DNA of 64,000 bases from Paramyrothecium sp. XJ0827 (lineage: Eukaryota; Ascomycota; Sordariomycetes; Hypocreales; Stachybotryaceae), in assembly GCA_020881915.1 (NCBI GenBank), contig JAJFPB010000003.1:5270001-5334000 (forward strand), written 5' to 3'. Under the pieces are notes generated by a model. That model was not told where the DNA came from and searched no databases. It was given only the letters and a program-made list of their open reading frames with translations. How positions within the stretch are numbered: the first letter of the stretch is position 1; each line of letters opens with the position of its first letter. This document shows, piece after piece, positions 20,218-56,695 of the stretch. A program made the translations under genes and the position numbers.

Positions 20218-21656
20218 CTTGCTGGAGGGCAGTTGTCTTGGACCTGAGGGAGGGGAACTTCAGTCGAACTGCTTCCACGATAGTTGGCTGGAAGATGGTG
20301 GCACGGACCGCGGCTGGTTCTAGGAAATGATGGGCGATGAATTCTATTCTTTTAATACTTGAGCATCGTGCGAGTCGTCTCTAACCATCCATCAACACCC
20401 CAGCATCAGCGGAAGTCGGCAATTTCCTTTCCTGGCAAAGCCAGCCGGTCGAGTCCGGCTCAATTGTTAAGCTGCGCAGTGCCTGAATGACCCCGACCAG
20501 TGCTAGTGTATACGGAACAGCCGAGTACAAGCTTACCAGCCCACCAAGCTCCTGGGATTCTATTCGTTCCCTCTCGCTTCTTTCCCCCCTGTCCCATTTC
20601 AGTCGTTCTCGACGGGCGGCCAAGGAAAGAGAACAAAGTCCCTTTCCAGTTTCCACCCTGGCTACCTTTGTACGTAGTACGATGTGTTCGAATCCTACCA
20701 GCAAGCGCCCTGGAAAACCTGGGCCCATGATTGATTAAGCTTAACAGGGCTGAGGCCAGACTAAGTAGTGGGCTCGGCACGTACCGCTTCTGGACAAGAC
20801 CCTCAGATTCCCTGTGCCGGAAGGATTCACCGGCATAAATCGATCCTTTCGGTGCAACTGTCGGCAAGCAGGGAGCGATTCCCGTGCGTGACTGAACTTG
20901 ATTGTTATCCATTGCGGGTTAGTCAGGTGGCAATATAACCAACTTCGCTTAAGACATCATTATGCGTCAATGCGAAGGATTTTCGAAGAAGTCATGGACT
21001 AAACCCCTGGCAAGCCTGGCACGCGGGCCATGCACTCTGCCCCGACTCCGGTTGCTGGACACCAGGCTGCCACGAAATTGAGTTGCAGTACTGCAACGTA
21101 CCTACATGTCGCGTGCAACTACCTGGGATTGTGGGGTTGCCCCTGTCTTTTAAGCTGAGGTACCTTGCTTGATGCATATCAAGGGGTTTACCGTTGTTGG
21201 ACTTGACTTTGTACCAGTACATGAGTCGGTATTCTGTGGCTGAGTCTCCTAGGCTTCACTTAGTAACCATCCTAGATAGTTTGGTTACAAGTGCCTCATC
21301 AATTTCCTATCTTAAGGCGAAGTTTTACTCCTCTCCCAGCTGACCTGTCGAGACGGTTCTCAGACTATGCTTCAACGAGTGGGCGTTGATGAGAATGCGA
21401 CTACCTTACCTCCGAGAATTTGTAACCGGCCTCATCAAGTCATAGAATGCCAACCGGTTTCACACAAGGGGTGATTATTTGCCCCTGAATTTTCCTCACC
21501 GGTCAATTCCGCTGTGACTAGGATAACTCCCCAACGTTACATCATCCCATGACCTGCCTGAAAGGGAAAGGTTCTCGACCCTCCGCAACAACCTCATTGT
21601 ACAACCGAATGTTGCCTGATGATCGGACTACAATCAGCGCACGGTGAAAGCAATAA
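20218..21656. other. Gene-free stretch
   Basis: This is the upstream region of the LysM gene plus about 1 kb without recognisable coding sequence. A hairpin at about 20441-20461 looks like a tRNA T-arm, but no complete tRNA can be folded around it. Confidence 0.4.
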
Positions 21657-25118: not shown

Positions 25119-26346
25119 CTTGTCGATTGTCTGTGCCTGGCTGCTTTGTTTGTCTGGCACGGCGGCGACCCGGAACAACACGTCGTGCTTGAAAGGACGA
25201 GCGGTGGGTCGTATACTCTACTTTTTGTAGGACAAAACACACGGCCACTCATCGTTCAGTCAGGAGTCCCGGAGCCCGTCGGACGGACTTTAGCTGGGGC
25301 TCGAAATCCGTCAGACTGGCTGATGCACAATTTCGGTCTTGGCCGGCGGAACCCCCCTGAACGCAAACCACCAAATCCATCACGGTCTAGATTGGATTCA
25401 GGCAGAGTCCAGCTTGAACTGGGAACACAATCCTACGGCATCTGATGACCAGAAGAGTCGAAATGACTAGCTTGTGAATGCAGGCTAAGCACAACACATG
25501 TGTGCATCAGGGAACTCAATCGGATGAAGCTTGGCAAGCATGGGAAGCCCGGTAGTTTGCTGGGAACCCTTGAAAGGTCCGTGTCCCAAAGGCTGTAAAC
25601 GTACTCATGCACAAAAGCGGCAATGTATCGATACAAAGGATTAGGCCTCGTCTTGATTGGACAATCAGCCGACGAGACCATTCCGATCACGGTCCCACAT
25701 GAACTGTAGGTTGTTGATTGGATGGTACAGTGATGCCCTGCGACCAACTTCATGTAAGGGGAAAAACTATAAGGGGCTTGCCAAAGCATTAGTACTGTCT
25801 ATCTTTGCGGAGGCGGGTGATTCCACCCCCGGACCTTGTCAACGTCGAGGATAATTTTCCATGGACATTGTTAGCTTGCGGCTTTTGCCACGGTAGGATT
25901 CAGCAATTTTTAGAACAAACTTCATGCTTGTCCCGAATTGGTGTGCATTTCCGAGCTTGATGGAGTGGCGTTTCTCTGTCCGTCAAGCTCTTCAACAGGC
26001 AACGGGGGCCATGACATGACATACCGGTACGTTCCGGAACAATTGGCACATGCCCATGCAAAAAGGGATCATCGTGCCCCCTGCACATCAAGCGGTGTCG
26101 GTGGCCCCGTGTCAACACCGGGATGAACACCGTAGGCACCACACTTATTGGTTCTCATCTCTTCTATGTATTAAAACCGACAATGCGCCTTGCAAGCTTC
26201 ATTTCTCAAAGTGCCGCAAAGGTCTGCGCGACCGCCATCACTTTCCTTCTCTTTCTTGCCCTCTGCGCATTCACATCGTCCCGTTGTCACACAATCTTGC
26301 GTCCTTTCACTCGCCAACTCTCATCGGCGAGTTCAAGCTCGTCAAG
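25119..26346. other. Divergent promoter region
   Basis: A shared upstream region between the secreted-protein gene (minus) and the chitinase gene (plus). The 200 bases before 26347 are C/T-rich, like many fungal core promoters and 5' leaders. An open frame reads into the chitinase from 26050, but its N-terminal part is not protein-like, while a signal peptide starts at 26347. Confidence 0.5.
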
Positions 26347-29300
26347 ATGAAGTTCTCCACCCGGCCGCTGGCTCTTACGCTGTGGCTCAACCTTGCCTGG
26401 CAGTCACAGGCCGGTGTTGATGTGGATGGTGAGCCTGTCCTCGCTCTAGGCGATGCTATTCCTATTGATGAGTACGATACATATTGGACTCCACTCCACA
26501 CTTGCCCCGCAGCCTGCTCCGGGGCAGGATCTGAAGAATGGATGTCCTACACTTCCCTTCGTGACTTTGCGGAGTGTGGCGAGCCTCTGCTTCTGGACTT
26601 TTCCCTGTATAACCCCATTGAGCCTGGGAGTACGCTCAGGCTGAAAGCTTGCAACGCTGGCAAGGAGACGGAATCGGACTCGCCTTCCACGAAGAAGATT
26701 GCCGCTTCTCGTCGAGCTATCACCAAGAGGGACGAAACCGAGTGTCCCTCTGCCGCTCCACACAAGACCGTGGTCAGTTTGCCACTCTCTCGGGGCAAGT
26801 CGGACGCAAAAGCCTCTGATAATACACTTGCCTTGTTGAAGCAACTTTCGGGTTATTTGAAAGAAGACTCGGGCTGCACGACTAAACACCTGTTCGGATA
26901 CAGCAATGGGACCGTTGCAGGTCTTTACGCAGGTGCCTCTTATGGCAGCCGAAGCGCTATCTCGCTGCTTGAAAAACTCACCGAGACTGTCAAGGTTGAC
27001 GGTGCCTCAACTACTCTTATCTCGCAGCTTTGCAGCGCGGATAGTAATGTTAACGAGGTTATTGGCGTTGCCATTGACACTACAGGCGATCTTGCTGCGG
27101 TCCAGAGGGCGGTTGTCTCCTGGGATGCTGCCAAGTGCGTTAAACAAGGCTCCACAACCCAGCTTGAGGATGTTCCCGTGTGGAAGGCCTCTGAAGCACG
27201 CAACGTCACGACAAACTCTACCGAGAGCGAGTCGAAGCTTCAGGCTAGGGACATCAGGCCCAGGCAAAACTCGGATGGCTCGTGTAAATCATACGTCACC
27301 GTCACAGACGACAGCTGCTCCAAGATCGCAACCCGAAATGGTCTGACGCAAAAGGAGCTCGAGAGCTTCAACGACAAGACCACGTGGGGCTGGAACGGCT
27401 GCGACCCCAAGACATTCTTTGTCGGCGTGAACATCTGTCTTAGCAAGGGGTCCCCACCTTTGCCGGCACCAATGGCTAATGCCGTCTGTGGGCCATTGAA
27501 ACCTGGCTCATCACGACCAACAGACGGCACCAAGATTGAGGATATGAATCCATGCCCCTTGAACGCGTGCTGCAATATCTGGGGCCAGTGCGGTATCAGC
27601 GGCGAATTTTGCGTGAAGAGCCCTGGCCCAACGGGAAACCCCGGCACATCTCCAGCTGGGAAAAACGGTTGCGTATCTAGCTGCGGAATGAGCATCGTCA
27701 ACAACAGTCAGAAGCCAGGAAGCTATGGACGTATCGGATACTATGAGAGTTGGAACTTCAACCGCCCATGTCTTCACATGCGGGTCGAGAACGCCAACAC
27801 AGATGGCACCTACACGCACATTCATTGGGCTTTCACCGAGATCAACACAGGTGACTGGACCGTAAAGGTGGCTGACCCTTACAACCAGTGGGCCAACTTT
27901 AAGAAGATGCCCAACGTCAAGAAGATCATCTCATTTGGTGGTTGGGGCTACTCGACGGAGCCAGGCACGTACGATATTTTACGGCAAGCTATGAGCCCCG
28001 CCAACAGGGCCAAGTTCGCGGCCAATGTTGCGTCCTTTGTTAACAAGGAAGGCCTTGATGGCGTCGACTTCGATTGGGAATACCCTGGAGTGAGAATCAA
28101 GAGCCCCACCGATTGTTTCGCCCCAGTATGCTAATAATTGTACCGTAGGCTCCCGATATTCCAGGAACGCCTCCTGGTCTGGCTAGCGACGGACCAAACT
28201 ATCTGAAGTTCCTCACGGTTATGCGAGGCTCAATGGCAAGAGGGCCCAACGGCAAATCGTTATCAATTGCTGCCCCTGCCTCGTTCTGGTACTTGAAGCA
28301 GTTCCCTATTGCTCTAATGGCCAAGGAATTGGACTATATCGTGTACATGACCTACGACCTGCACGGTATGCACAATCACCCATAATCGGCAAGTGACGTC
28401 AACAACTGACTTGAATCTGTACAGGCCAATGGGACTCGGGCAACAAGTGGGGCATGGAGGGTTGCGAAGGAGGTAACTGTTTGAGGAGTCACGGTATGAA
28501 CATTCACCCTTTGTCTAGGTTTCCATTTGCTGACACTAGGGCGCAGTCAACATAACCGTGACGGACATTGCTCTCTCCATGGGTAAGTATACGATTCTTG
28601 GTGCTCAGAAAGCCTGCTAACCAGTATTGATTCCAGTCACAAAGGCCGGCGTACCAACATACAAGATTTTTGTGGGAGAATCCAGTTATGGACGCAGTTT
28701 CAAGATGGCTCAAGCAGGTTGCACGGGCCCAGACTGCAAGTTCTTGGGCGATCGACTTAATTCCCCAGCCGCTCCCGGCCGATGCACCGGCACAAGCGGC
28801 TACATTTCTGACGCAGAGATCAATGAGCTTGAGATGTCTGGCGGAAATGTCAAGACTTGGCATGACGATAAATCGGACTCGGACATCATGGTATACGACA
28901 GTACGTACCACAACCCCCATCCCTTCCAGCAACATCGTGCCCCTTTCTCTCCCAATCATAAATTTATCACATGTTAACCACCGAGTACTATAGATACCGA
29001 GTGGGTTGCTTATATGAAACCGGCGACGAAGTTGATGCGTCGTGCCGCCTGGCTAATTGGTAACTTTGCTGGTACCATTGATTGGGCCGTCGATCTTCAG
29101 GCTTTCACCAACGATGAGTGGACTGGGCCTGAAGACCTTGACTGGGAACTGCCAACGCCCAAAGATCGCTCCAAATGCACGGGAACATACGACACATTGT
29201 CTTCTATACCTTCCGACACCCCAACCCATTGCCGCAACCTGTACATTCTGCAGTCCCTACGCAAAATGCTCAAGGACACTATGACCGACTATGATACTTT

Positions 29301-39114: not shown

Positions 39115-40072
39115 TTCAGTGATGGATACTTTTGAGAAGCCTAGCTGCGTTAGATATCAGTTGCAGTAAACAATTCTTGCGCCTGATGTAATCCTATCTA
39201 CTACGGGCTTGCAGCCATTTGTGTCATGCCACAAGTTGTGCTTGAAGCAGATCAAGAGGCTAGACACTCAGGTGTAACGAGAACGAATAGAACAGTAGTG
39301 AAATATCTTGGTTCCCGACATTACATCGGAAACCTTAGGTCCGATAACATGCGTACTCTTTCCATGCTTAAAAAAGTATGTAAAAGTTGCATAAAGTATG
39401 TAGATGCATGAAATCTTTGATCCAACCATACTTGAGGCCCTAAATCATAACGAGCGAAATCAATCATGGCAGCCATCATCTGGGTTGGTCAAGCTCTGGC
39501 GTCCCATGCTCGGTTGTCCATCTTTCGATTTATGTTAGCCAAAGTCTCAAGTCACTTTGAGTAGTCGCTAAACATGCTCTAGTTACTCTAACCGGCTAGA
39601 GGTAATGGTGATGCGCTGTTGCGGGCCGGCAATGGCAGTTGCGGACAGAAGCGGGCCGATGCGGCAAGGCACTCCCCACAACCACCCACCAGTAATCAGA
39701 CCCAATCACCGAACGCCGAGTTCTTGATGTGGTGATGGACTGCTCACGGCCACCATGATTGCATGTTGATGGAACGAGATTAATATACCCAAAGGGTTGC
39801 AAGTTGAGTTTACCTGTTCTCTGAAAGTCTCAAGATCTCATTCCAAAGAATCGTGAATCAGGCTTGATAATTCCACAATTGCCCGTTTGTGCGTGTCATT
39901 TGCTTACGGACCGGAGCGGTTGCAACATCGTCGCCACGGCTCTCGAGAAAAGCGCTTAAGATATAGATGTTCACAGAGTCCGATGTCGGATCCGTCTGTG
40001 TTACTTAAGTATCACGCTCAATATTTTCATTGACGAAAACATCAGTCTCGTTGTTATCTGAATCCATCCACC
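39115..40072. other. Promoter region of the fusion gene
   Basis: About 960 bases between the regulator and the fusion enzyme gene. No gene was seen. The last 120 bases before 40073 form an A/T- and C/T-mixed leader. Confidence 0.4.
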
Positions 40073-43000
40073 ATGGCTGCCTCAGATAATGCGCGACACT
40101 TCAGGATTGCCCTGTTACCAGGCGACAGTCCTGGTCCCCAGCTCGCGTCCTATGTCACGCAGACCCTAGACCTCATTCAAAGAGTGCGGAGAAATATCGT
40201 CTTCGATGTCGACGAGCATGTCTTTGGAGGTGTTGCCCTTGATTCAGGGCACGATTCTGCTCTACCGCAGTCCACTCTTCAAGCTTGCCAAAGGTCCAAC
40301 GCCGTGATTTTATGCGCTTGCGGGGACAAAAGATTTGGCATCGAACCGGAAAAGGGACTACTGCGGCTTCGTGAACAACTCGGGGCGTATGCCAACGTTC
40401 GTTCTATCAGATTCCCGAGCCCTCAATTAGCTGAGTTGAGCGCGTTCAAAGTCGAAAGGGTTGAGGCGGTCGACGTTACGTTTGTTCGCGACCTGACAGG
40501 CGGCATCTACTATGGAGACAGGAAGGAAGCCTTGGGAGCCGACGAAGAAGCTTACGACACCACTTCTTACACGAGCCAATCAATCGAGCGCCTCGCCCGC
40601 TGGGCCGGCCACATCGCAAGGCTCCATAGCCCACCCAAGCCCGTGCACTCGATAGACAAGGCCAACGTCATGGCAACTTCGCGACTCTGGAGGTCCGTGG
40701 CTTCAGATGTCTTCCAGCGGGAATTCCCAGAAGTGCCACTTGATCACATTTTAGTCGACACCGCGGCAATGATGCTATCATCCAACCCTACGGCACTGAA
40801 CGGCATCGTCTTGACAGAAAACATGTTTGGCGACATCCTATCTGACCAGGCCAGTGGAATGCTGCCTTCTCAAGATCTCCTAGCCTCTGCCTCGGTATCA
40901 GCTTTGCCGGGTGCTGGAAGCGATGACTCGCCAGGGATGTTTGAGCCGCTCAACCTGAAGCCACGAAAACAGGTTGCCAATCCTACCAGTATCATTCAAA
41001 CCGTCGGCCAAATGCTGGAACTCTCGTTTGGCCTTTCCAAAGAGGCAGAAGCATTGGGTAAAGCCCTCCGCCGCACCCTGGATCCCATCGAGCTCATTGG
41101 CTCCCATATTCGTACAGTCGATCTTGGTGGGTCAGCGTCGGCGGATGATTTCATGGCACAGTTCCTTGAACACCTCGAATACAATCTTGAGGCAGTCAAC
41201 TCACTTGAGATGGTCGCATCTCCTGCCGCAACCCTTCAGCCAAAATCCAGCTCCTTCATGGGAGCCGAGGGCAAACGCCCAATGGGAGTTGTCGAAAAGA
41301 TTATGACGAATGCCGGCATTGGCTTGAAAAAGCCGTACGTGGTGCCTGGCGAAATGATATGTGTAAAGGTCGACTGGACAGTGACATCTGAGCTGCTCTG
41401 GGGCGGCATGGAGAAGACGTATGATCAGATGAAGCGGCCGCGACTATTCCGAAATGATAGACTGTGGCTAGCCGTAGATCATACTGTTGATCCCCGTTCT
41501 AACCATTTACCACGGCAACGAGGTCTTATCGAGAAAGCGGAAAAGTTCAAGCGAGAAGCCAAGATTATCGACTTCTTACCAGCCAACACCAGTATCATGC
41601 ATACAGACTTCACACGCGAACGAGCGCAACCGGGCAAAATTGTGGTTGGAAGTGACTCCCACACATGTTCCGCAGGCAGCATGGGGTCTCTGGCCATTGG
41701 CTTTGGCGCAGCCGACGTTGTGATGCCCATGGTAACCGGTGAGACCTGGTTCCGCGTACCGGAGATTTGCAGGATAGACTTTGTCGGTCAGCTGCCGTTT
41801 GGCGTGGGAGGCAAGGATGTTATCTTACACATTCTTGGTCTTTTCAAACGAAACACCATTGCCTTCCAGCGTGCGGTAGAGTTCGGAGGACCAGGTCTCG
41901 GTGAACTCTCCATGGACGCTCGTTTCGCAATTGCCAACATGGCAACCGAGTTTGGTGGGATGGGTGCCTGTTTCGAAGCAGATGAGCATACGGCGACTTG
42001 GATCGCTGGGCGATCATTGCCGGAGCATCGAGAGGGTGGGCTGTACTTCCGTGCTGACCCAGACGCTCAGTACGCAGAGAGACGGGTCGTTGATCTCTCT
42101 CAAGTGAAGCTAACGATGGCATTATACCCCAATCCCGACAATGTAGTGGCAGTCACTGAAAAGACTGGGATGAAATTGGACGGTTGTTTCATAGGCGCAT
42201 GCACGACGACCGAGGAGGATCTTATCCTGGGAGCCTTGGTCCTTGAAGCTGGGTTGAAAGCCGGACTGACACCGACCCCGCATGGCAAGAGGCGTGTTAC
42301 TCCTGGCAGTCTGACTATTATCAAGAATCTTGATCGTATGGGTGTGTTGGATTTCTATCGCCGAGCCGGATTCGATATCGGCGCACCCGGGTGCTCGTAC
42401 TGCGTCGGCATCAACGATGTCGACGTGGCCGGCGAAGGGGAAGTCTGGCTTTCTTCGCAGAACCGGAATTTCCGCAACCGAATGGGAAAAGGAAGCTTTG
42501 GAAACATCACCTGTTCGGCGGCAGTCGCTGCGTCAAGCTTCTCAATGACTGTGACCGATCCCGCTCCGCTGCTTCAACAGCTTGACAAAGCCAAGGTGGA
42601 GAAGCTCCTCCGCAGTTGGAAGTCGTATGACACCATTATACCAACAATCCAGGAACCGACACCCGAGATTTCGTCACTTGAGACGCCTTCTCTACTGAGT
42701 GGAGGAGTTGATCTGAATGAGACGGTTGTGCCTCATTTCAGCTCACCAAGAGTCATCAAGTCAAAAGTCCAGCGTTTTGGCGAAAATGTTGATACGTAAG
42801 TCCTGCCCCTCCGACTCACCCAATTTTTGCATTCATCTCTAATCGACGGTATTAGAGACGCCATTATACCCGCAGAATTCATGCCAGGCGTGGATGACGC
42901 GGACCTAGGGAGCCACTGTTTCCAGTACTATCGCCCCGAGTTCCGAGAAAAGGCTAGGAATGGTTCTCGTGTCATGTAGGTCTCCTTACCTGCCCGTGAT

Positions 43001-43534
43001 TTACACAACCCAGAGCTAACTCGGTCACAGCGTGGCGCAACATGGATTTGGGAGTGGATCCTCCCGTGAGGATGCAGTCCGGGCGCTTAAAGGCTCGGGT
43101 GTCGAAGCTGTCATTGCTCAAGGCTATGCCTTTATCTGTAAGTCATAGCTATTCTCCAAAATCGCAAGATCTGGTTGATTAACAGCATTGCAGACGAGCG
43201 CAACCAGCTAAACATGGGTCTCTTCAACGTCCGGCTGCAAGATGACGACTTCTACGCCAATGTGCATGAAGACTCCGTTATTGAGATCAACAAAGATGAC
43301 AAAACCATTCGCATCGAAGGGTTGTCCAGGGTTTTCTCCTATGAACAATCGCAAATTGAGGAGACCTTGCTGGACGACGGTGGAGTCATCGCACTCTACA
43401 AACAATACGGGAAGAAGATTTTCCGTCATATTACTATAACGAAAGCTAAGAAACGAAAGATTGGGAATAATTCACCAACTAGCGCAGACACTGAGGTGAC
43501 CGGTTGTGGCAGTCAACGGGGCATGGACTGGTAG
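40073..43534 (+). CDS. Fused isopropylmalate dehydrogenase + isopropylmalate isomerase/aconitase
   Basis: Four exons (40073-42795, 42856-42975, 43031-43137, 43194-43534) give 1096 residues. Residues 1 to about 365 form an isopropylmalate/isocitrate dehydrogenase: VRDLTGGIYYGDRK, SIDKANVMATSRLWR (catalytic Lys) and ENMFGDILSDQASG. From about 400 the protein is a complete LeuC/LeuD-type aconitase. The three 4Fe-4S cysteines are in SDSHTCSAGSMGS, FIGACTTTEED and GAPGCSYCVGIND. The swivel domain ends with HGFGSGSSREDAVRAL and ALYKQYGKK. No stop or splice signal separates the halves. Normally leucine synthesis uses separate Leu1 and Leu2 proteins. Some changes stand out: CTTTEED replaces the CTNxR loop and NVRSIR replaces the usual NLRP. 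A dedicated alpha-keto-acid chain-extension enzyme for a secondary metabolite (as htyC/htyD in echinocandin loci) is the favoured reading. Confidence 0.93.
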
Positions 43535-44311: not shown

Positions 44312-44689
44312 CTAGTAGGAATCCTCTGCTCCAGCGCTGTGTTCAGCCTCGGAGGAGAAGCCGCGCTTCTCGGGCTCCGTGATAAAGCTTCGCTCTGCTT
44401 CAGTTACAAAAGCACGCTTCTCAGGTTCTGTAATAAAGCTTCGCTCAGCTTCGGTAACAAAAGCGCGCTTCTCGGGTTCCGTAATAAAACTTCGCTCAGC
44501 TTCAGTAACGAAGCTACGCTTCTCGGGTTCTGTGACAAAGCTGCGCTCAGCCTCGGTCAAGAAGCTACGCTTCTCAGGCTCGGTAATGAAGCTTCGCTCA
44601 GACTCGGTAACGAAACCACGTCTCACTGGGGCCGGAATAGCAACGGCAGAGCCCAAAAGTGCAAGACCGACGACCTGAGTGACCTTCAT
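44312..44689 (-). CDS. Kex2-processed repeat peptide precursor (KEP/RiPP-like)
   Basis: A single exon encodes 125 residues, starting at the Met of a clear signal peptide (MKVTQVVGLALLGSAVA); an upstream in-frame Met at 44773 would destroy it. After a short IPAPVRR propeptide come five 17-residue repeats: GFVTESERSFITEPEKR, SFLTEAERSFVTEPEKR, SFVTEAERSFITEPEKR and two identical copies of AFVTEAERSFITEPEKR. The tail is GFSSEAEHSAGAEDSY. Every repeat ends in Lys-Arg, the Kex2 site, so the Golgi protease should release several near-identical acidic peptides. Each unit is itself a doublet of x-F-(V/I)-T-E. There are no W...W pheromone-like cores. The gene is divergent from two UstYa-like proteins, which in dikaritin loci modify such cores. 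No Tyr is present in the repeats, so any crosslink would have to use Phe, Thr or Glu. Confidence 0.9.
   Translation of the reverse strand: MKVTQVVGLALLGSAVAIPAPVRRGFVTESERSFITEPEKRSFLTEAERSFVTEPEKRSFVTEAERSFITEPEKRAFVTEAERSFITEPEKRAFVTEAERSFITEPEKRGFSSEAEHSAGAEDSY
44363..44617 (-). repeat. Five tandem 51-base repeats encoding Lys-Arg-bounded peptides
   Basis: The array covers residues 25-109 of the precursor. Copies four and five are identical in protein sequence; the others differ by one to three conservative residues. Because of the repeat, the opposite strand is also open over most of the array; that frame is a shadow. Confidence 0.92.
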
Positions 44690-44871
44690 ATTGAGGGACT
44701 GCAAGCTATTAGACTTTTGAATACGAGGTGGTCGACTGTAGATAAGTTGCAACTGACTTAGAAATGGCAACAATTGCTTTGCAAATAGCTACGAGGCGTA
44801 GAGGATGAGGAAGATTCGAGATAGTTGGATGGTTGAATTTGCCTGGAAAGAGGGAAGAGAAATAGGAGGGA

Positions 44872-44879
44872 CTTTATAT
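44872..44879 (-). promoter_or_regulatory. TATA-like box of the peptide precursor
   Basis: The minus strand reads CATATAAAGTCCC here, about 185 bases before the precursor start codon, followed by a C/T-rich leader. It is a plausible core promoter element; position implies a 5' leader of roughly 150 bases. Confidence 0.5.
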
Positions 44880-45484
44880 GCACTCTGTGGACCATTTACA
44901 CCCTGATACGGCCGAGCAGAATGTCACTACATCCCACGGGGCCCATCACGCATCGAAAGATGACTTCATCGGAGCATTCGAGTTGACAAATCGTATCGCA
45001 ACCCCGCTTCTGCCCACGGAGATGAGGTTAGATCCTGTCGAGAGGAGGCCAAGACGACAGATCGGGCTCTTATCAGCGACAATATAGCTATTGCTTCAGA
45101 TAAAGAGTCTTGGCTTGTGGCCGGTCGATAAATCTAACCAGTATTTGGATACACACCCATCGCGGCAAATCAAACTACAGTAATCCTTTGCTGCGGAGTG
45201 AATTGGATGATGCATTTGCCATAGCTGAACCTGCGTCTACGACCAAGCGATGTCACTCTCTGTTCTGGACATGAGCCAGGGTCAACCGTCGAACTGACCA
45301 TCATGCTGAGCCCAGCCAATCTGACACGAAAGATATGGCGATTCTTTGTCATCTCCAAGTTCTGTTCCAAACTTTATGTAGTATGCGCACATCAATGCAA
45401 CTGAGGATGACGAGTTCTTGCCTAATGTCGGCACTTATAATCTCGGCCAACATCCATCTAGCCCCATTTCTCGGCCGCTGTCCG

Positions 45485-45490
45485 TATAAA
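45485..45490 (+). promoter_or_regulatory. TATA-like box of the first UstYa-like gene
   Basis: TATAAA in the context CCGTATAAAACCC lies about 210 bases before the start codon chosen at 45701, with a C/T-containing leader after it. Confidence 0.45.
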
Positions 45491-45700
45491 ACCCTGACGG
45501 TTGTATTGAGATAGTATGAACGTGTTATTTCGGCGCCTTTTGCTTGCTATAAACGTTCTGGGCATCATCTTTGGGCCCGCACGTCAACTTCGACTCTGCC
45601 GCCTTTTCCACGACCAAACCCCACATTCGCAACCCCAGAGTGCTGCTTCGCTTAACCCTGCTGGCCTTTGCAACCCGAGGGAAAATACGAATTTGTCACG

Positions 45701-46435
45701 ATGAAGTTGCCCCAGCTTAACGGTGGCTACGACACGCACTCAGCTGTTTGCCTTTTCCTCTTGGGTGCTGCGGTGCCATGGGTCGGGAGTCTGGTCTATT
45801 ACAGAATACACTGGAGCGCTCAACATTCGAGCGTCCAGTCTTCACGTGCCGGCCTGCTTCAAGCCCTCGACACTGATGGAGGTCGTTGCGGAACATCTCC
45901 GAAAGAAGCCCGGGAGAAAGGATGTCGCTTCGAATCCTTCACTGCAACCTGGCAGTTACCCGAATGCTACGATGAAGATCTGGATAAGGAATTTCGATCC
46001 CTGAGACCTTGGAAATTCATTGCGGAGAAGAATGGTACGATTGAAGTATCCCTGGCGGAAGTTGAAGGGGGCTCAGCTCAGGTCTGGACCACTTGGGAGT
46101 TCCACCTGTGGCAGTGTGCTTTTTACTGGAAGAAGGAGGTGAAAATCGCCCATGGCCTTGTTTCCGGTCCAATTACGCCTCACCAATGCCTGGACCACTC
46201 CTTGATGCAGGATCACAAACACCCACTCGATTACGTCGGGATTCCGTACTGGCCACGCTTCACACCATGCCAACCGCCCTCGGACATATCTGTACACCAG
46301 TTTGAGCTCAAGCCTGCAGACTTCGACGGCATCGGCAAGGAAGGGCACGGGCATGGGAGCTTACATGGATCCCACGATGGTAGCAACCAAGATGTTCACA
46401 GTCGTCATAACAGTGGTCACAACAGTGGCCAATAG
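45701..46435 (+). CDS. UstYa-like (DUF3328-type) membrane protein, degenerate motif, His-rich tail
   Basis: A single exon encodes 244 residues from 45701 (an upstream in-frame Met at 45668 adds 11). One membrane helix lies near the N-terminus (VCLFLLGAAVPWVGSLVYY), so the bulk should be lumenal. The lumenal part has CGTSPKEAREKGCRFESF...WQLPECY, shared with the neighbour at 47011. UstYa-family proteins carry two HxxHC motifs thought to bind copper for oxidative cyclisation of peptides. Here the first is HLWQC (135-139, second His lost) and the second is shifted (TPHQCLDH, 159-166). The C-terminus is unusual: residues 216-240 are rich in His, Gly, Ser and Asn (GHGHGSLHGSHDG and onwards). It may act as a non-catalytic partner or have altered chemistry; this is inference. 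Confidence 0.75.
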   Translation: MKLPQLNGGYDTHSAVCLFLLGAAVPWVGSLVYYRIHWSAQHSSVQSSRAGLLQALDTDGGRCGTSPKEAREKGCRFESFTATWQLPECYDEDLDKEFRSLRPWKFIAEKNGTIEVSLAEVEGGSAQVWTTWEFHLWQCAFYWKKEVKIAHGLVSGPITPHQCLDHSLMQDHKHPLDYVGIPYWPRFTPCQPPSDISVHQFELKPADFDGIGKEGHGHGSLHGSHDGSNQDVHSRHNSGHNSGQ

Positions 46436-47010
46436 TCAGGACACCGGGAGGGATACCTGCAGCGCTAAACTAGTCTACATGTAAATAGCTAGACTTGATC
46501 AATCAGAGGAGCGCTTTAACAGGGGACATGTCACCTCATGCAACCCCATGTCTAACTACGGACTAGATCGTGCCCTACGCGCTTGGCAGGGCAATACCAA
46601 GATGGACCCAGCCGCGCTATCTGCGAGTCTCTCTGGATTTTGTGGTCATTCGTGAGCCAAGACGATCGACATGTGGCGATGCGGGCGCATGGCTGCTGAA
46701 GCATTGTCAGATATATCAGACATAGTAAGAAGTTGCCTGAGCAAGACTGGATCCTTGCAAAACTTTAAAGCGGCCCCGTTGCATGATAATGCATCGCTTT
46801 CCGCGGCAAAAGAGAAGCGGGGGTTGGTCTCCTAATTATTCATTCTGCTGCAAGGGTGTCACTCTCGATTTGCCTCTTTAGTCAGGAAGGCACTTGTTGC
46901 AGCTCAAATGCAATATCTGCTGAACGTGATTCTATTCTACAGACGGTTGTTTCTCAGACATCTCTCCATCTCTACTTTATCACTCCCTTACTCCTTATCA
47001 ACAAGACAAC
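46436..47010. other. Intergenic stretch
   Basis: Spacer between the two UstYa-like genes; the right half contains the promoter and C/T-rich leader of the second. No gene was seen. Confidence 0.4.
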
Positions 47011-47703
47011 ATGCCTGGTTCTGATGAGGAGGTCACGATTCATTTGTTTTCAGACGATCAGACAGAAAGTGATGACGAGCCTCTCACTATCAAACCGGCA
47101 AAACAAAACCGGGGTCGAGTTTGGAAGCTCTTCAAACTGGGTTGCCATTTCGTGGCAGGACTCTTGATTTCTTCCATCGTATTACTCTCCACGTCAAAGT
47201 CTCCTCACATCCATAACCAGAAAATGACTAATTTCACCGTCTGGGAGCCATCGTCGGCTTGCGGATCCTCCCCAGAAGAAGCAATGGCTCGTGGATGCAT
47301 CTACGACGAAGTATTACTTCATTGGATGCCTGAAGAGTGCTCCAGCCCTTTGCTGGTCGACGAGATTGCCCACGTTTGGCCGTGGAGGTTTTGGACAGAC
47401 AAAACCACAACGCGGGAACTGAGCCTCGCTGATGTCCGGCGAGGAGACCAACCCGAAAAATGGGTTTCTTATGGGTTGCACAGATGGCATTGTGTGGCAA
47501 CGTGGAAGATTTTGACGCTGGCAGCTACTACTGGAACCACGGTGCCGGCGTATGCGCTCGATTGGAAGCACACCGTTCACTGTTCCGACCACGTGCTCAT
47601 AAACAGACATTCGTCGAATCCGTTCGCGATCAACTCACATCTGGACATTGAGTATACGCCATGTGTTCAGATCGCCGTTGACAAGATTCTCGCACGCCGA
47701 TAG
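47011..47703 (+). CDS. UstYa-like (DUF3328-type) oxidative protein with two HxxHC motifs
   Basis: A single exon encodes 230 residues. It has a cytosolic acidic tail, one membrane helix at about 44-62 (GCHFVAGLLISSIVLLST) and a lumenal domain. The domain begins CGSSPEEAMARGCIYDEVLLHWMPEEC, clearly paralogous to the preceding gene. Two exact HxxHC motifs are present: HRWHC at 157-161 and HTVHC at 187-191, the hallmark of UstYa and UstYb, which help oxidise and cyclise Kex2-released core peptides in ustiloxin-type pathways. Topology and length also fit that family. Overall similarity outside the motifs looks distant from classical DUF3328 proteins, so this may be a separate subfamily; the motif spacing is shorter than usual. 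Confidence 0.8.
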   Translation: MPGSDEEVTIHLFSDDQTESDDEPLTIKPAKQNRGRVWKLFKLGCHFVAGLLISSIVLLSTSKSPHIHNQKMTNFTVWEPSSACGSSPEEAMARGCIYDEVLLHWMPEECSSPLLVDEIAHVWPWRFWTDKTTTRELSLADVRRGDQPEKWVSYGLHRWHCVATWKILTLAATTGTTVPAYALDWKHTVHCSDHVLINRHSSNPFAINSHLDIEYTPCVQIAVDKILARR

Positions 47704-48965: not shown

Positions 48966-49859
48966 ATGGCAGACTCAGTCCATGATGTCTACGGCTCTGA
49001 ACCCCCCAAAGAAAGGGTCACATTGACTGGCAGCCAGGAAACCCTACTGGGAACCATCTCAGCAAAAGCAGCCGATGCTCTCAGTCCCACCTCCATACTT
49101 CGGGATAGATGGGCTGCCGAGCTCCTCACCAAGCTGGACTACAACTTTAGTCGGCTTGGGGTGAATGGCTGGTTACAAGCATGGCCCGTCATGCGCAGCC
49201 GCAGCCTTGACCGCTGGACTAGTGATTTTCTTGACCAGCATGCCCATTCGCCGGTCGGAGTCACTGTGCTGCATCTTGCTTGTGGCCTGGACTCCCGAGT
49301 TCTACGCCTGCAACAGTACTTCACGCGATCCAACATTCGTTGGATTGATGTGGATTTGCCTGATGTCGTCGAGTTGCGTAGGAAGGTTGTTGAGGAACCA
49401 GCCATTGATACCCAGAGTCAAAGCAGTTACACCCTCATAAGCGCATCCGTCACTTCATCTGGCTGGCTGGAGAAAATATCGGCGGACCGACCAACAATCA
49501 TTGTCTTTGAAGGCCTTAGCATGTATCTATCCGAAGAGGAAGCTCATGATATGATTCGGAGGCTGGTATCGCATTTCAAACAGGGGCAGCTGATATTTGA
49601 CGCTGTCAATTCTTTCTTTGTTGGATCGCAGCGGTGGATCAATCCAGTGGCCAAGTCAGGTAGCACTCTGAAATGGTATGTTGATCGGCCCATCGCGCTG
49701 GAGGCATGGGCCGACGGCCTGCGTCTGCGTGATGAGGTGTTCCTCAGCACGAGGGCAGAGATAAAGGAGTTCCCGTGGTGGATCCGCTGGCAGTTCTGGA
49801 TTGCTGCGAGCCTGCCTAGGGTGTATGAATTCTCTAGAGAGCTCAGATTCAGCTTCTGA
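48966..49859 (+). CDS. SAM-dependent methyltransferase, LCMT/Tcmp-like
   Basis: A single exon encodes 297 residues. The fold markers are VTVLHLACGLDSRVLRL (SAM-binding glycine loop of the leucine carboxyl methyltransferase family), WIDVDLPDVVELRRKV (acidic residue for the SAM ribose) and TIIVFEGLSMYLSEEEA (motif IV/post-IV). Fungal and bacterial members methylate polyketide or other secondary-metabolite oxygens, and the PP2A methyltransferase is the housekeeping relative. This copy is shorter and lacks the PP2A-specific insert, so a metabolite substrate is more likely. It stands on the same strand as the two UstYa-like genes, 1.3 kb after them, which suggests a tailoring role in that locus; this is inference. 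Confidence 0.9.
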   Translation: MADSVHDVYGSEPPKERVTLTGSQETLLGTISAKAADALSPTSILRDRWAAELLTKLDYNFSRLGVNGWLQAWPVMRSRSLDRWTSDFLDQHAHSPVGVTVLHLACGLDSRVLRLQQYFTRSNIRWIDVDLPDVVELRRKVVEEPAIDTQSQSSYTLISASVTSSGWLEKISADRPTIIVFEGLSMYLSEEEAHDMIRRLVSHFKQGQLIFDAVNSFFVGSQRWINPVAKSGSTLKWYVDRPIALEAWADGLRLRDEVFLSTRAEIKEFPWWIRWQFWIAASLPRVYEFSRELRFSF

Positions 49860-51552: not shown

Positions 51553-53294
51553 CTAGTATGCTTCAACCTGCGTCATCTGGTGCATGGTCAAGCTATAGCT
51601 AGCAAAAGGGCTCCTCTGGCGCAGCCTCCTACTGTATCGTAAGAACAAGACTGCTGCGAGACAAAAGATGGCAGATATACCAGCCAGAACAGATCCTGCA
51701 ACATTCGTGTTCAACCGCGAATACATGACATGTGCTATCAGTGGCATAACACCTGAGATGAGAGCCCTAGCAAAAGCAAGACCGGAAAATACAGAGGCGC
51801 TATAAAGCGTGTATGAGTCTGCAAGGAATCCGCTGAGGGTATGGGCTGTCTCATTGACCGCGAAACCAACAGGAATTAAGGACAATGTCGGCACAACCCA
51901 ATGTATTTTATGGCCCGCTGGTGGTATGGTCCAGGCAAACCAGATGAGCCCTATGGTGAGCGCTGGTGCAGCAAATGCAAAGCCTTTGAGCTTGTCTTCT
52001 CTGAACGGCAAAAGTCAAAATCAGTTGTTAGCACCTGGGAAACTTGGATGCAACTCACGGCTCAATAGGCTTATTGGCTGCCTGGCGAAGACGCAACTTC
52101 TTCATGTCGGAAAATCTTGGGATGAGCGTGAGAAGGACACCAATGGCAATGGAGAGGAATGCCAGTGAGGCCTGTGAAGCTGTAAAGCCCATAGACCTGT
52201 AGACCTGTATAATCGAGTCGGTAAAGAGGTAGATTACGCTCCACGAAACCCCAGATGTAATGGCAATAAGAATGACAAGCGGTTCCGTGAGGAGGATATG
52301 CATTGGCCTCACTACAACGATATGTGTGAATATTCTCCAATCCTTGGCATTATCGGCGTTGGTCCATTGTAGGTCGGTGATTTTTGTCGTTTTGCGGAGC
52401 CGCTCAATCTTGCGGCCGAGTATAACGCTCGGACGACTCTCCTTGACCCTCAACAGCGCCAAGCACAGGACCGCAGTGCAAATGGCAGCGCTGTAGTAGA
52501 CCCATTCCCAACCGACTGAAGAAATGATGTACGCTGCGTATATAGGCCCGATGCACAATGCGATGGTTGTAGATGAGTTCCACAGCACCACTGCCCATAC
52601 CCTGTGCTTGGTGTTGAACAGATCTTCAACGCTCCCCGCAATCACAACTGAGGGTACGGCCGAGGCCAATCCGGTAACAAACCGGCCAATGTAAATGGCA
52701 GCAGGGCTGGAACCCAAGGGTATGACGGCACAAAACACGCTGAACAGTAGCGTAGAGACGAAGTATGGATACCAACGGCCTGCTAGCTCTGAAAATGGAG
52801 GTATCAAATACCCTCCTATAGCTTGGCCGAATTGATACCTAGTACATTCTTAGTATTCTGCCATCACCAAACAGCCAGATAGCCTCACATGGAAACAAAT
52901 GCTACCAGAGCTGGCAACTTATCCAGTCCATATTGAGGCCCGACTGCATGGGCCACGGCGGCCTGACAAACCAGTCAGCGTGGTCTCCTCAGAATACAAA
53001 CACTGAAGCTCGGATGCCACTCACTCCAGTAGTACTGATGATGGTCCTGAATAATAAATTAGATGCGTCCAATAATTCCGCAGCACGAATGACGTACGTA
53101 TATAGCTCCAGGAGGATAATTATGGATACGGCGTATAATTTCCTTTGTATTGTCCAGTTTCGGGGGTGGTCAGGACTGTCTTTTTGCCAGCATATCAGGC
53201 CCTCAGCATTCCTCTCGAGACCTTCAGCAGCAAGGAGAGAGGTTTCATCATCGTTGATCTCGATCACGGAGCAATCGCTCTCGTGGGTTTTCAT
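51553..53294 (-). CDS. MFS transporter (drug:H+ antiporter-like)
   Basis: Four exons, 53025-53294, 52889-52962, 52059-52838 and 51553-52000, give 523 residues; introns are 50-62 bases and all joins keep the frame. The N-terminal tail contains DHPRNWTIQRKLYAVSIIIL, typical of fungal DHA1-like exporters. The small second exon supplies AAVAHAVGPQYGLDKLPALV, then YQFGQAIGGYLIPPFSELAG and the conserved loop-proximal IYIGRFVTGLASAVPSVVIAG. The central loop carries LRVKESRPSVILGRKIERLRK, as in this group, and GFAVNETAHTLSGFLADSY comes late. Twelve helices are likely. In the middle of a possible peptide-metabolite locus it is a candidate exporter; the substrate is not readable. Confidence 0.9.
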
Positions 53295-54411
53295 TTTTGC
53301 TTACAAACGAAAGTTAGGAAACTCAACAGCTCTACTTGGGGGCCTGGTCGGCTTTGCTACCTGAACTGGTCTTATACCTACTGTTGGCGAGGCCGCATAT
53401 GAATCTCACCCGACAGCGCTAGTGGCAATAGATATCATCTCAATCTCACAGGATCAAGACTAATGACTCTACACACGTTTGCCAAGAAGAATAGACGGGC
53501 CTGCCGGACAGTTGAGACGATGGTGGAGCCGATCAATCCTTGGTAACTGGTACTCACACCAATATGCCTTAGACAGGGACTAGCTCTTTCCCTTGCTTCT
53601 GGAAAAGGGGGGGTTCGTAGCAGCTGCGGCACCCCAGCAAGGGAGAGACAAGGTTAGTGAATACAATCTCGCCAAGTCCATGTCCTCTCCCTGAAATCAA
53701 GGCGTCATTGCATTGACTTTAGTTTCCTGGTCCATTCTACCTGTTCGAAAAACGTCAAACAGGATGAAAGCTGTTGTACAGGATACACTATGTGATGAAT
53801 CCTTCACAGCTGGGTTTGTCATGATAATCTCGGTTAGAGAGCCCGGAACCATGTACCATAAGCGGCCCATGACACCTCTTCAGGACGGATTGTGACACTT
53901 AGACAGGGCACTTCATCACACACACCTGTATACAGGCGTTAGGGCCAGCAGTTTACATAAATCATGGAGTAAGCTGATATAAGCGCTAAGTCAAAGTCCA
54001 ATAGGAACTGTTTATGTACGATCCTCCGAGTATGCAAGACACAAGCAGGCATGAACAATTAGTCTACTGGAAATTGCGAAAACTTTTTTCTGCTACAGGT
54101 ACAGGCACGCATGCACTTGGTCCCCATGGTTGAGCTTGTAAATCTGTATCGTTCCCAAGATCCGGGAAGCTTCAGTCGCTTATGGCTAAAGCCGAAAAGA
54201 AAGCCTATCCAAGTAAGTCAAAGTCTACAACGTAGAGGCGTGTCTCGACCCCGCTTTGAGAGCCGGGTTCATGACTCCCTGGTCATGCTTCATTAATACC
54301 ATTATTCTTGACTCTTACGCCTTAAAGGGGTTGTCGCCCAATTTCGACGGCCACCAGGCCATCACAACAAGCAAGTATTCTTTAATCTGTGATCTATTAC
54401 TGCCATCAAGC
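53295..54411. other. Divergent intergenic region
   Basis: Lies between the MFS gene (minus) and the PLP-lyase gene (plus) and should hold both promoters. No other gene was seen. An open frame runs upstream of 54412 from 54256 but lacks conserved sequence. Confidence 0.4.
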
Positions 54412-55614
54412 ATGAACGAGCACGAAGCCTCAGAAAAGGTGTCATGGGGGGATCCGGAAAACACAGGCGCTTGTTTTGACTTTAGAAGTACGTGGAATTT
54501 GACAAAACATCCTTCATCCAATCCACTTGGAAGGGTTGCTGACGTGAAGCTAGGCGATGTCATAACAACCCCATCGCGTAGTATGCTTGCAGCAATAATC
54601 CATACAACTCTCAACGATGATGTGTATAATGAAGACAGGACCACGGCGTCATTTGAGTTGGAAATGGCGACCATATGTGGCCATGAGGCTGCCGCCTTCG
54701 TCATCACTGGTACCATGGCTAACCAACTCGCGCTCCGCACCCTCTTGTTCCAGCCTCCCTATGCCATCCTTACCGACGCCCACTCTCACATTATCCATTG
54801 GGAAGCTGGAGGTACGGCACTTGTGTCCGGTTCAGTTGTTCAGGCTATCCGACCCTCTAATCGGCGGTATTTGACACTGGATGACATCAAGAAGCATGCT
54901 GTGCTCACAGATGATGTTCACAAGTGTCCTACGCGGCTGATCAGCCTTGAAAACACAACTTCGGGCACCGTGATCCCTCTATCTGAGTTGCGGCGCATCA
55001 AAGAGTGGGCAACCAAGAACGGCGTCGCCGTTCATATTGACGGTGCACGATTATGGGAAGCAGTCAGCACTGGGGCCGGAACGCTGCGTGAGTTTGCCGC
55101 GTGTGCAGACTTGACGACGCTCGATTTCAGCAAGAACCTGGGTGCACCAATGGGGGCAATGGTCATTGGGTCCGCAAAGTCGATCAAAACTTTGAAACGG
55201 ATTCGCAAGGGCCTGGGTGGTGGGATGAGGCAGGCCGGTGTGTTGGCGAGTGCTGCAAGACAAGCAGTGGTTGAAAACTTTGGTCTTAGCGAGACCTGCA
55301 CAAAACTGACACTAAGAAAAAGCCACGAGATGGCGAGATTCATTGCTCAATTGTGGACGAATAACGGGGGTCTTCTTCTACGCGAAGCTGAAACAAACAT
55401 GGTATGGGTTGACCTTCAAGCTGCAGGTGTTGAAGTTGAAGAGTGGAACAAAAAGGGCAGAAAGCAGGGCATTCTACTCGATGGAAAAAGGATCGTCTTT
55501 CACCATCAGATTTGCGATTCAGCTTTGGCCCGGCTGAGCCGGGTCATGGAAGAGGTTCTCGGTCGTGGGCAACTGCTGCAGGTTCAGTCAAAGCCAGAAG
55601 TAGCAAAATTATAA
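54412..55614 (+). CDS. PLP-dependent threonine aldolase / beta-eliminating lyase-like enzyme
   Basis: A single exon encodes 400 residues from the Met at 54412, chosen because conserved sequence (FDFRSTW, then PLGRVADVKLGD) begins shortly after. Fold type I signatures are visible: DDVYNEDRTTASFELE, GHEAAAFVITGTMANQLAL (phosphate region), SLENTTSGTVIPLSELRRI, VHIDGARLWEA (Asp binding the pyridine N) and LDFSKNLGAPMGAMVIGS with the PLP Lys in SKNLGAP. The His-containing loop AHSHIIHWEAGG matches threonine aldolases. Typical activity is reversible cleavage of L-threonine or allo-threonine to glycine and acetaldehyde; fungal relatives in secondary metabolism include the alanine racemase TOXG. It may make or cut a beta-hydroxy amino acid in the neighbouring locus. 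Confidence 0.9.
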   Translation: MNEHEASEKVSWGDPENTGACFDFRSTWNLTKHPSSNPLGRVADVKLGDVITTPSRSMLAAIIHTTLNDDVYNEDRTTASFELEMATICGHEAAAFVITGTMANQLALRTLLFQPPYAILTDAHSHIIHWEAGGTALVSGSVVQAIRPSNRRYLTLDDIKKHAVLTDDVHKCPTRLISLENTTSGTVIPLSELRRIKEWATKNGVAVHIDGARLWEAVSTGAGTLREFAACADLTTLDFSKNLGAPMGAMVIGSAKSIKTLKRIRKGLGGGMRQAGVLASAARQAVVENFGLSETCTKLTLRKSHEMARFIAQLWTNNGGLLLREAETNMVWVDLQAAGVEVEEWNKKGRKQGILLDGKRIVFHHQICDSALARLSRVMEEVLGRGQLLQVQSKPEVAKL

Positions 55615-55763: not shown

Positions 55764-56695
55764 TTACACCCTGTTTTCTAATCTTCCTTTCAAAGCCTGG
55801 GCCACTGTTCGAGCAAATGTGAGAAGCGACGCAGCGCTGAGAATCTTCGGCACACTGATTTCAAAACCGAGTTTCTGTCGAAACCAGTTCCGCAGTTCAA
55901 TGGCAACTAGCGAGTCAATACCGAGGGCCGCCATAGGAGCTGAAATATCCGGGTCATCTCTTGGCTTCATCATGAGCTCGTAGAGCATGGCTCCGATATG
56001 GTGGGCAAACCCTGCAACCTCTGCATCTCCGTTGAGGCTGTCTGGCTTGATCTTTGCCGCGAGCAGAAACGCTCTTAAACCGTCATCTTGATTACCACCG
56101 GTGAAGACAGCATCGGCTACATAATCGGCTTCCTTGGTATTGCGGTACACACTGAAACGGGGGTCTCGCTTCCACTGAGCGCGGTTCGCGGCTGAGAAGA
56201 GTGGAGTTGCCGTTCGAGCGCCTAATGCGAACTAACTGTTGCTGACGTAGCTGCCACGCGGTCGGTCGTCGATTTTTTGCACGGCTGGCGGAGAAAGGTT
56301 GATGGCTAACTCCAATTCGTCGAGCACGGATTGCTCTTTTACAAAATAGGCAGATATAGCCTGTAATCTTGCAGCGACTTCCGCGTTCCGATGAATGTAG
56401 CCGACATCCTCAACAGGACCCAAAAGACAGAGGCCGGTAGGCCAAGGGCGTGTCGAGCCTGTACGGAGGCATCTTGGTAGCAGCTGCCCGCTGCGTAATT
56501 CGCTTGGTCAAGCCAACCATTCAAGCCTGCCATTGAGCTGAAGAGGACAAAGAAATCAAGGTTGTAGTTTTTTGTGGTTTTATGAAGGTTCCAACAACCT
56601 TGAATCTTGGGCGAGATTACTTCAGTCCAGTCCTCGTATGTCATGTTCTCGAAAGGCTCGTCCTGTATATTGTGTTGGCGAATGATTCTAAGTGG
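55764..56695 (-). pseudogene. 3' remnant of a highly reducing polyketide synthase (KR end + ACP)
   Basis: The minus strand encodes, in order, the end of a ketoreductase domain (FENMTYEDWTEVISPKIQG, LDFFVLFSSMAGLNGWLDQ), the linker (GPVEDVGYIHRNAEVAARL) and a terminal acyl-carrier domain with the phosphopantetheine Ser in ALGIDSLVAIELRNW. Lesions: the frame changes near 56430 at a run of four T on the coding strand (one missing T explains it), and an in-frame TAG lies at about 56230-56232 in the linker. Nothing upstream of the KR survives; the sequence passes into A/T-rich DNA at 56700. No ketosynthase, acyltransferase or other domain is in the window, so this cannot be active. Confidence 0.88.

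Follow-up and report, generated by a model that had tools for sequence, protein, structure and literature searches.

In gene content, the closest described relatives of the locus analysed here are the dikaritin clusters (those of ustiloxin, phomopsin, epichloecyclin, victorin and asperipin-2a, the last, like our locus, with no known tyrosinase), in which a Kex2-type repeat precursor stands beside genes for membrane proteins with HxxHC motifs. The available text of PMC12048977 treats the UstYa/DUF3328 protein as the class-defining enzyme, and relates that the definition of Ding asked for a tyrosinase in the cluster, a requirement later dropped. UstYa-family proteins are described, in the available parts of the sources, as cyclising and desaturating core peptides (PMC10512285) and, in the cyclochlorotine cluster, as hydroxylating and chlorinating (PMC12048977). 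Here we describe a locus of Paramyrothecium sp. XJ0827, lying in a 64-kb stretch (the window; C9:5270001-5334000 of the 51.8-Mb genome, 15 contigs), where a repeat precursor adjoins two related membrane proteins, A and B. What is new here is the A/B family, and we give an even chance to the view that the three genes form a small, tyrosinase-free ribosomal-peptide cassette in which metal-binding membrane oxidases of a divergent family act. The locus consists of the following features:

44312-44689, minus strand: precursor gene for a secreted Kex2-type repeat protein of 125 amino acids (aa), made up of a signal peptide, then RR, five KR-ended units of 17 aa and a tail of 16 aa
44363-44617, minus strand: repeat array, five 51-bp/17-aa units of the form [GSA]F[VL]TE[AS]ER-SF[IV]TEPEKR
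44690-45700: intergenic region, 1,011 bp between the divergent start codons of the precursor and B
45701-46435, plus strand: protein B gene, encoding a paralog of A of 244 aa that crosses the membrane once; relatives P0004, P0011-P0015
47011-47703, plus strand: protein A gene, encoding 230 aa with a single membrane pass and the motifs HRWHC and HTVHC; relatives P0001-P0010

The arrangement of a Kex2-type repeat precursor next to HxxHC membrane-protein genes is shared with the dikaritin clusters. Unlike them, the window contains no match to PF11807 (the UstYa/DUF3328 profile) or to tyrosinase (none of the 47 PF00264 matches falls within it), the genome scan yielded no S41 peptidase (its controls, all prokaryotes, matched in 10 of 14 cases), one member of the membrane pair lacks HxxHC, and the repeat lacks Tyr. 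By its class-defining enzyme the locus thus does not qualify as a dikaritin cluster; that it nevertheless works like a dikaritin pathway is, in our estimate, about evenly balanced. An earlier note, made from the DNA alone, had called the locus a candidate dikaritin-like one, and this description stands as far as the repeat precursor, the paired membrane proteins and their UstYa-like motifs are concerned; membership in DUF3328 is not supported.

The precursor begins with MKVTQVVGLALLGSAVAIPAPVRR before the units, has a hydrophobic stretch within residues 1-22 (MKVTQVVGLALLGSAVAIPAPV) that qualifies by hydropathy as a signal peptide, and ends in the tail GFSSEAEHSAGAEDSY. Its units, i.e. GFVTESERSFITEPEKR, SFLTEAERSFVTEPEKR, SFVTEAERSFITEPEKR and two copies of AFVTEAERSFITEPEKR, are near-identical, 17 aa long and set apart by KR, as in the Kex2-processed repeat proteins (KEPs), and each is composed of the two half-units joined by the hyphen in the pattern above. 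Tandem Repeats Finder detects the array at periods of 51 and 102 bp (scores 294 and 331). The array is more than chance: only one of the 916 open reading frames (ORFs) of at least 40 aa in the real window has similar segments ending in KR or RR, and when the window was resampled 20 times with a first-order model, not a single ORF contained as many as two such segments. The sole Tyr of the precursor stands at the very end of its tail. The earlier note's account of a signal-peptide protein with five KR-ended, Tyr-free repeats is thereby confirmed.

Among the ten unit pairs there are 65 synonymous and 20 nonsynonymous codon differences (proportions pS 0.68 and pN 0.064, ratio 0.09). Synonymous change far exceeds amino-acid change, so the units are old, with their peptide sequence kept by purifying selection. 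In four of the five other frames of the array pN/pS exceeds 2. In the fifth, antisense in codon register, it is 0.15, and since this ratio is also low, the choice of frame leans as well on the start codon, the signal peptide and a relative in Colletotrichum kahawae. That relative, P0016 (85 aa, E 7.9e-13), was the only match among 7049 candidates in the precursor database search, and qualifies the remark of the earlier note that the repeat matches no core known to its author. It carries GFVTEDKR, SFVTEDKR and SFVTEPEKR units, is annotated as 'cell surface protein precursor' and, when searched back against the genome, hits the window precursor before anything else (E 5.2e-13). Both half-units of P0016 end in KR, whereas every first half-unit of the window precursor ends in ER; the two proteins thus share their pair of half-units, and one dibasic site per double unit was either lost in the window precursor or gained in P0016. 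As a result of the DKR versus ER difference, the released peptide may be 6-7 residues long in one fungus and 15 in the other.

Proteins A and B each have one hydrophobic helix close to the N-terminus. The two motifs of A, HRWHC at 157 and HTVHC at 187, lie 30 residues apart. An alignment of A with nine of its ten relatives (A1; P0004, a merged gene model, was left out) shows an HxxHC pair at the same spacing in all ten proteins, and none of them has a His after YTPC. The corresponding B alignment (A2) holds B and five of its six relatives, again without P0004. The families are related (A1 versus A2, hhalign probability 99.3, E 1.1e-20), which bears out the paralogous single-pass pair of the earlier note, one member with two perfect HxxHC motifs. 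In the six aligned B-type members H135, C139, H161 and C163 are invariant, and five of the six have a His-rich C-terminal tail, with 5 to 11 His from PPSD onward (the shortest, P0014, has one). In a combined alignment of 13 rows (A4: A, B, a third family member on contig C8, five A-type and five B-type relatives, leaving out P0003, P0004 and P0008-P0010) six Cys are invariant throughout, as is the first His of motif 1.

Relatives of A (10 of 266 candidates at E<=1e-3) were found in Paraphoma chrysanthemicola (68% identity), Pyricularia pennisetigena and five Colletotrichum species (falcatum, somersetense, orchidophilum, asianum and phormii). The B search gave 6 of 301 candidates at the same threshold, including P. 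pennisetigena, C. falcatum and C. somersetense; Paraphoma had no B match at E<=1e-3. The species names are those of cluster representatives (P0008, from C. asianum, represents six sequences). The A and B genes lie side by side in two other fungi or more: in P. pennisetigena they carry consecutive locus tags (PpBr36_04828 and 04829), and P0004 of C. somersetense, present in both match lists, is one gene model spanning 69% of B and then 60% of A. There is also a hint of both on one contig in C. falcatum, and for P0010 and P0013, as in each case the longest contig has the same length (158,140 and 6,165, respectively). In the window B and A each occupy one uninterrupted plus-strand frame, with 575 bp between them, and the precursor gene adjoins B in divergent orientation. 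The case for the shared promoter region proposed in the earlier note is weaker than claimed: 1,011 bp separate the start codons, and TATAAA occurs independently on either side (consensus matches only), twice on the B side and once on the precursor side, where it lies 189 bp upstream of the ATG and precedes a pyrimidine-rich stretch.

Whether A, B or the C8 protein is used as the query, the searches point to at least three family members in this genome, i.e. A, B and L022:9228-9950 (C8:559228-559950). A fourth row, on C7 (E 3.9), was rejected as a chance match with internal stops. The third member has a PF11807 place on either side (557.8-558.7 kb and 560.6-561.3 kb), in a cluster flanked by a class V aminotransferase, a Gfo/Idh/MocA oxidoreductase and a transporter. 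The A/B family, although outside PF11807, thus reaches a neighbourhood where UstYa proteins work. A second precursor starts divergently nearby, at 562.27 kb:

L023:2272-2814 (C8:562272-562814): repeat precursor with a Trp core within the UstYa cluster

It is of the Kex2 type and holds ten copies of STNNQAGWG, nine of them followed by a full dibasic site (pS 0.73 and pN 0.11 for those nine). At both family loci, then, a divergent Kex2-type precursor lies no more than two genes away. Two out of two is few, however, and as it was the precursor that drew attention to the window locus, C8 is left as the only independent test.

If the preferred reading is right, the precursor would enter the secretory pathway, where Kex2 would cut after RR and every KR, releasing 15-residue peptides such as AFVTEAERSFITEPE once KR is trimmed. 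The computed [M+2H]2+ values of the unmodified 15-mers are 863.4201 for AFVTEAERSFITEPE, 871.4176 for SFVTEAERSFITEPE and 864.4098 for GFVTESERSFITEPE; if ER were also cut, AFVTEAER would give an [M+2H]2+ of 461.7351 and SFITEPE an [M+H]+ of 822.388. Protein A would be anchored in the membrane with its globular part in the lumen; judging by the signal peptide, the dibasic sites and the single membrane helix, the precursor and both membrane proteins would share one compartment. Through its two HxxHC helices A would bind a metal, probably copper by analogy with DUF3328 enzymes, one of which is reported as copper-dependent (Chiang 2025). A may then oxidise the peptide, and since the unit has no Tyr and the window no tyrosinase, an ether of the ustiloxin type, formed through Tyr, is unlikely; desaturation, hydroxylation or a side-chain link via Phe or Thr would be the likely reactions. 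As a paralog without HxxHC and with a His-rich tail, B is read as a partner or a subunit handling metal or substrate, and not as a catalyst. The three genes would in this way act jointly. In favour of this reading are the purifying selection on the units, the adjacency of A and B in other fungi, the divergent precursors at both family loci, the UstYa-like spacing of the two HxxHC motifs, their position at the start of successive helices in the models of A and of a UstYa control, and a twilight profile match described below; the lack of a tyrosinase match in the window is in keeping with the Tyr-free repeats.

Several findings weigh against this reading. B lacks HxxHC and has HLWQC and PHQC at the motif positions (the six aligned B-type members have HLWQC, HLHSC or HLTQC at motif 1 and HQC at motif 2). 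PF11807, with 28 places in the genome scan and none within the window, is unmatched by A or B at E<=10 and by all 13 proteins of A4, so that membership of the pair in UstYa/DUF3328 is not supported. A separate scan found no PF11807 match in P0005, P0014 or L022:9228-9932, and in that scan two UstYa ORFs of the genome, as positive controls, matched with E 2.3e-40 and 9.3e-34. When A1, A2 and A4 were compared with a profile of nine UstYa ORFs of this genome (A3; L026:5376-5909, with two motifs, was left out), the probability was 0.3 each, and for A4 it was 1.2 after realignment and 10.1 with roles swapped. Four small UstYa subgroups, by comparison, find one another in all six pairs (probability 95.2-99.7).

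A single subgroup, G1, gave a stronger signal, still in the twilight range: A4 matches it with probability 64 (score 38.5), with HxxHC aligned to HxxHC at both motifs. Of the 16 comparisons made (A1, A2, the C8 member and A4, each with four subgroups), C8/G1 reached 19, C8/G3 9.5 and the 13 others less than 3. When the columns of G1 were shuffled 100 times, neither the A4 nor the C8 score was ever attained (maxima 19.6 and 24.8), these pairs being chosen post hoc. The A4 match falls to 27 when G4 is merged into G1, and without B (A1 plus C8 versus G1) the value is 8.8. When the motif columns are masked with X the A4/G1 match is lost (probability 4.7, in other columns), while two of three masked UstYa controls keep their signal against G1 (99.3, 89.3 and 10.4). 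Masking removes the signal, and the likeness to UstYa therefore consists of the double motif and its spacing; judged from profiles of this kind, remote kinship and convergence would both be possible.

These results bear on two alternatives. A and B might be true, highly derived UstYa enzymes, and the locus an ordinary dikaritin cluster whose core is unusual, as the spacing and register of the motifs, the order of helices, the single N-terminal membrane helix and the neighbourhood on C8 would allow; no profile, however, places any of the 13 proteins in PF11807, the signal comes from the motifs alone and B has no HxxHC, and we consider this unlikely. Alternatively, the pair could belong to an unrelated metal-binding membrane family (e.g. 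of metal-handling proteins or redox chaperones) whose HxxHC motifs are convergent, which would agree with the silence of the motif-masked profiles and with the His-rich B tails. Two motifs at UstYa spacing, in register and each starting a predicted helix, together with a family member inside a UstYa cluster, make such convergence highly improbable.

UstYa/DUF3328 proteins resemble A in their two HxxHC motifs (27-34 residues apart in nine UstYa ORFs, against 30 in A), in an N-terminal membrane helix, which UstYa proteins also have, and in a similar order of predicted elements. They differ in the Pfam match, in the likeness of masked profiles and in the six Cys invariant in A4. The order of elements was compared by eye in AlphaFold2 models of low confidence: A has a mean predicted local distance difference test (pLDDT) of 64.9 and a predicted template modelling score (pTM) of 0.55, and a UstYa ORF from C11 has 53.6 and 0.54. 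The corresponding elements are:

A 113-122, UstYa 70-80: helix
A 136-137 (two residues), UstYa 85-87: strand
A 139-144, UstYa 89-94: short helix
A 151-152 (two residues), UstYa 117-121: strand
A 154-174, UstYa 122-137: helix starting with the first HxxHC
A 185-196, UstYa 155-171: helix starting with the second HxxHC
A 218-220, UstYa 178-182: strand

Strands 97-99, 104-106 and 177-179 occur in the model of A alone, and helix 203-213, among others, in that of UstYa alone. Neither of these low-confidence models matches any solved fold, which again speaks against the proposed oxidase.

The distribution among species counts on the same side: C. kahawae, the source of the precursor relative, is missing from the list of seven species named for A, and none of the seven yielded a relative of the precursor, with the caveat that short genes often go unannotated and repeats change fast. 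It also lends weight to a third alternative, in which the precursor is an ordinary Kex2 repeat protein yielding linear surface or repellent, signal or effector peptides, and A and B act elsewhere, being neighbours by chance or through regulation. The name 'cell surface protein precursor' of P0016 would suit such a protein and, in the available part of Umemura 2020, 6120 of 7878 repeat precursors (78%) lack a DUF3328 gene within their 15 nearest genes. That the one further family member detected in this genome also lies near a divergent repeat precursor argues in the other direction: with about 5.4 such precursors per strain (7878/1461), a second chance neighbour is unlikely. This test is nevertheless confounded by the UstYa genes on C8, which attract repeat precursors by themselves. 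We regard the production of linear peptides as a serious but rather doubtful possibility.

The 28 PF11807 places were grouped into 15 UstYa loci (14 read over at least 10 kb, that on C1 over 3.4 kb), and repeat precursors were detected at four of them (C8, C9:4.99 Mb, C5 and C10). Those next to UstYa genes include L028:4105-5079, with units around VAYGRHTDDVP, L026:3921-4685, around YKLYSTEKR, and L031:5863-6093, around VADGFKR.

Two genes downstream of A are putative accessory genes only:

48966-49859, plus strand: S-adenosylmethionine-dependent methyltransferase of the leucine carboxyl methyltransferase (LCM) type (PF04072, E 6.2e-17)
51553-52849, minus strand: major facilitator superfamily transporter in two open frames (PF07690, E 1.5e-24, on 52058-52849; frame 51556-52014 without match)

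On the other side of the peptide locus, a single open frame (40034-43534, plus strand) fuses an isopropylmalate dehydrogenase (PF00180) with an aconitase-type dehydratase (PF00330), and is read as a fused leucine-type chain-extension enzyme; the frame that follows resembles, by inspection, a small dehydratase subunit (no Pfam match). The window also contains a C-terminal acyl-carrier piece of a polyketide synthase (55764-56231, minus strand; PF00550), which may be a remnant, as there is no synthase frame upstream among frames of at least 130 aa, a pyridoxal phosphate enzyme of the threonine-aldolase type (54217-55614, plus strand; PF01212), a protein with four LysM stretches (18486-20351, minus strand) and a frame carrying a GH18 chitinase domain (26020-28134, plus strand).

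The Kex2 repeat proteins without DUF3328 genes (Le Marquer 2019, Umemura 2020) have the same precursor architecture as ours; unlike them, the precursor described here adjoins an HxxHC protein and its paralog, which a PF11807 screen misses. Tyr-free cores by themselves are not new, since 65.6% of the repeats near DUF3328 genes contain Tyr (Umemura 2020, in the part available) and a third are thus without it. No description of an A/B-type family was found in the literature searched, subscription journals being mostly outside its scope. Taken together, the data suggest that A and B, which resemble the enzyme family of cyclic toxins and are not detectably members of it, represent a further peptide-modifying protein family. 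More tentatively, and as a possibility we would not yet favour, a second family of HxxHC membrane pairs, missed by the DUF3328 profile, may oxidise Tyr-free Kex2-repeat peptides as a two-subunit enzyme, with the His-rich, metal-handling tail of B replacing the catalytic motifs, and such pairs may account for part of the repeat precursors lacking a known modifying gene. If this is true, some of the DUF3328-less precursors would acquire a modifying gene from a family that shares motif and neighbourhood with UstYa without matching its profile, and the A1, A2 and A4 alignments provide a ready profile for re-screening genomes. A Tyr-free core would then mean side-chain chemistry beyond the Tyr ether.

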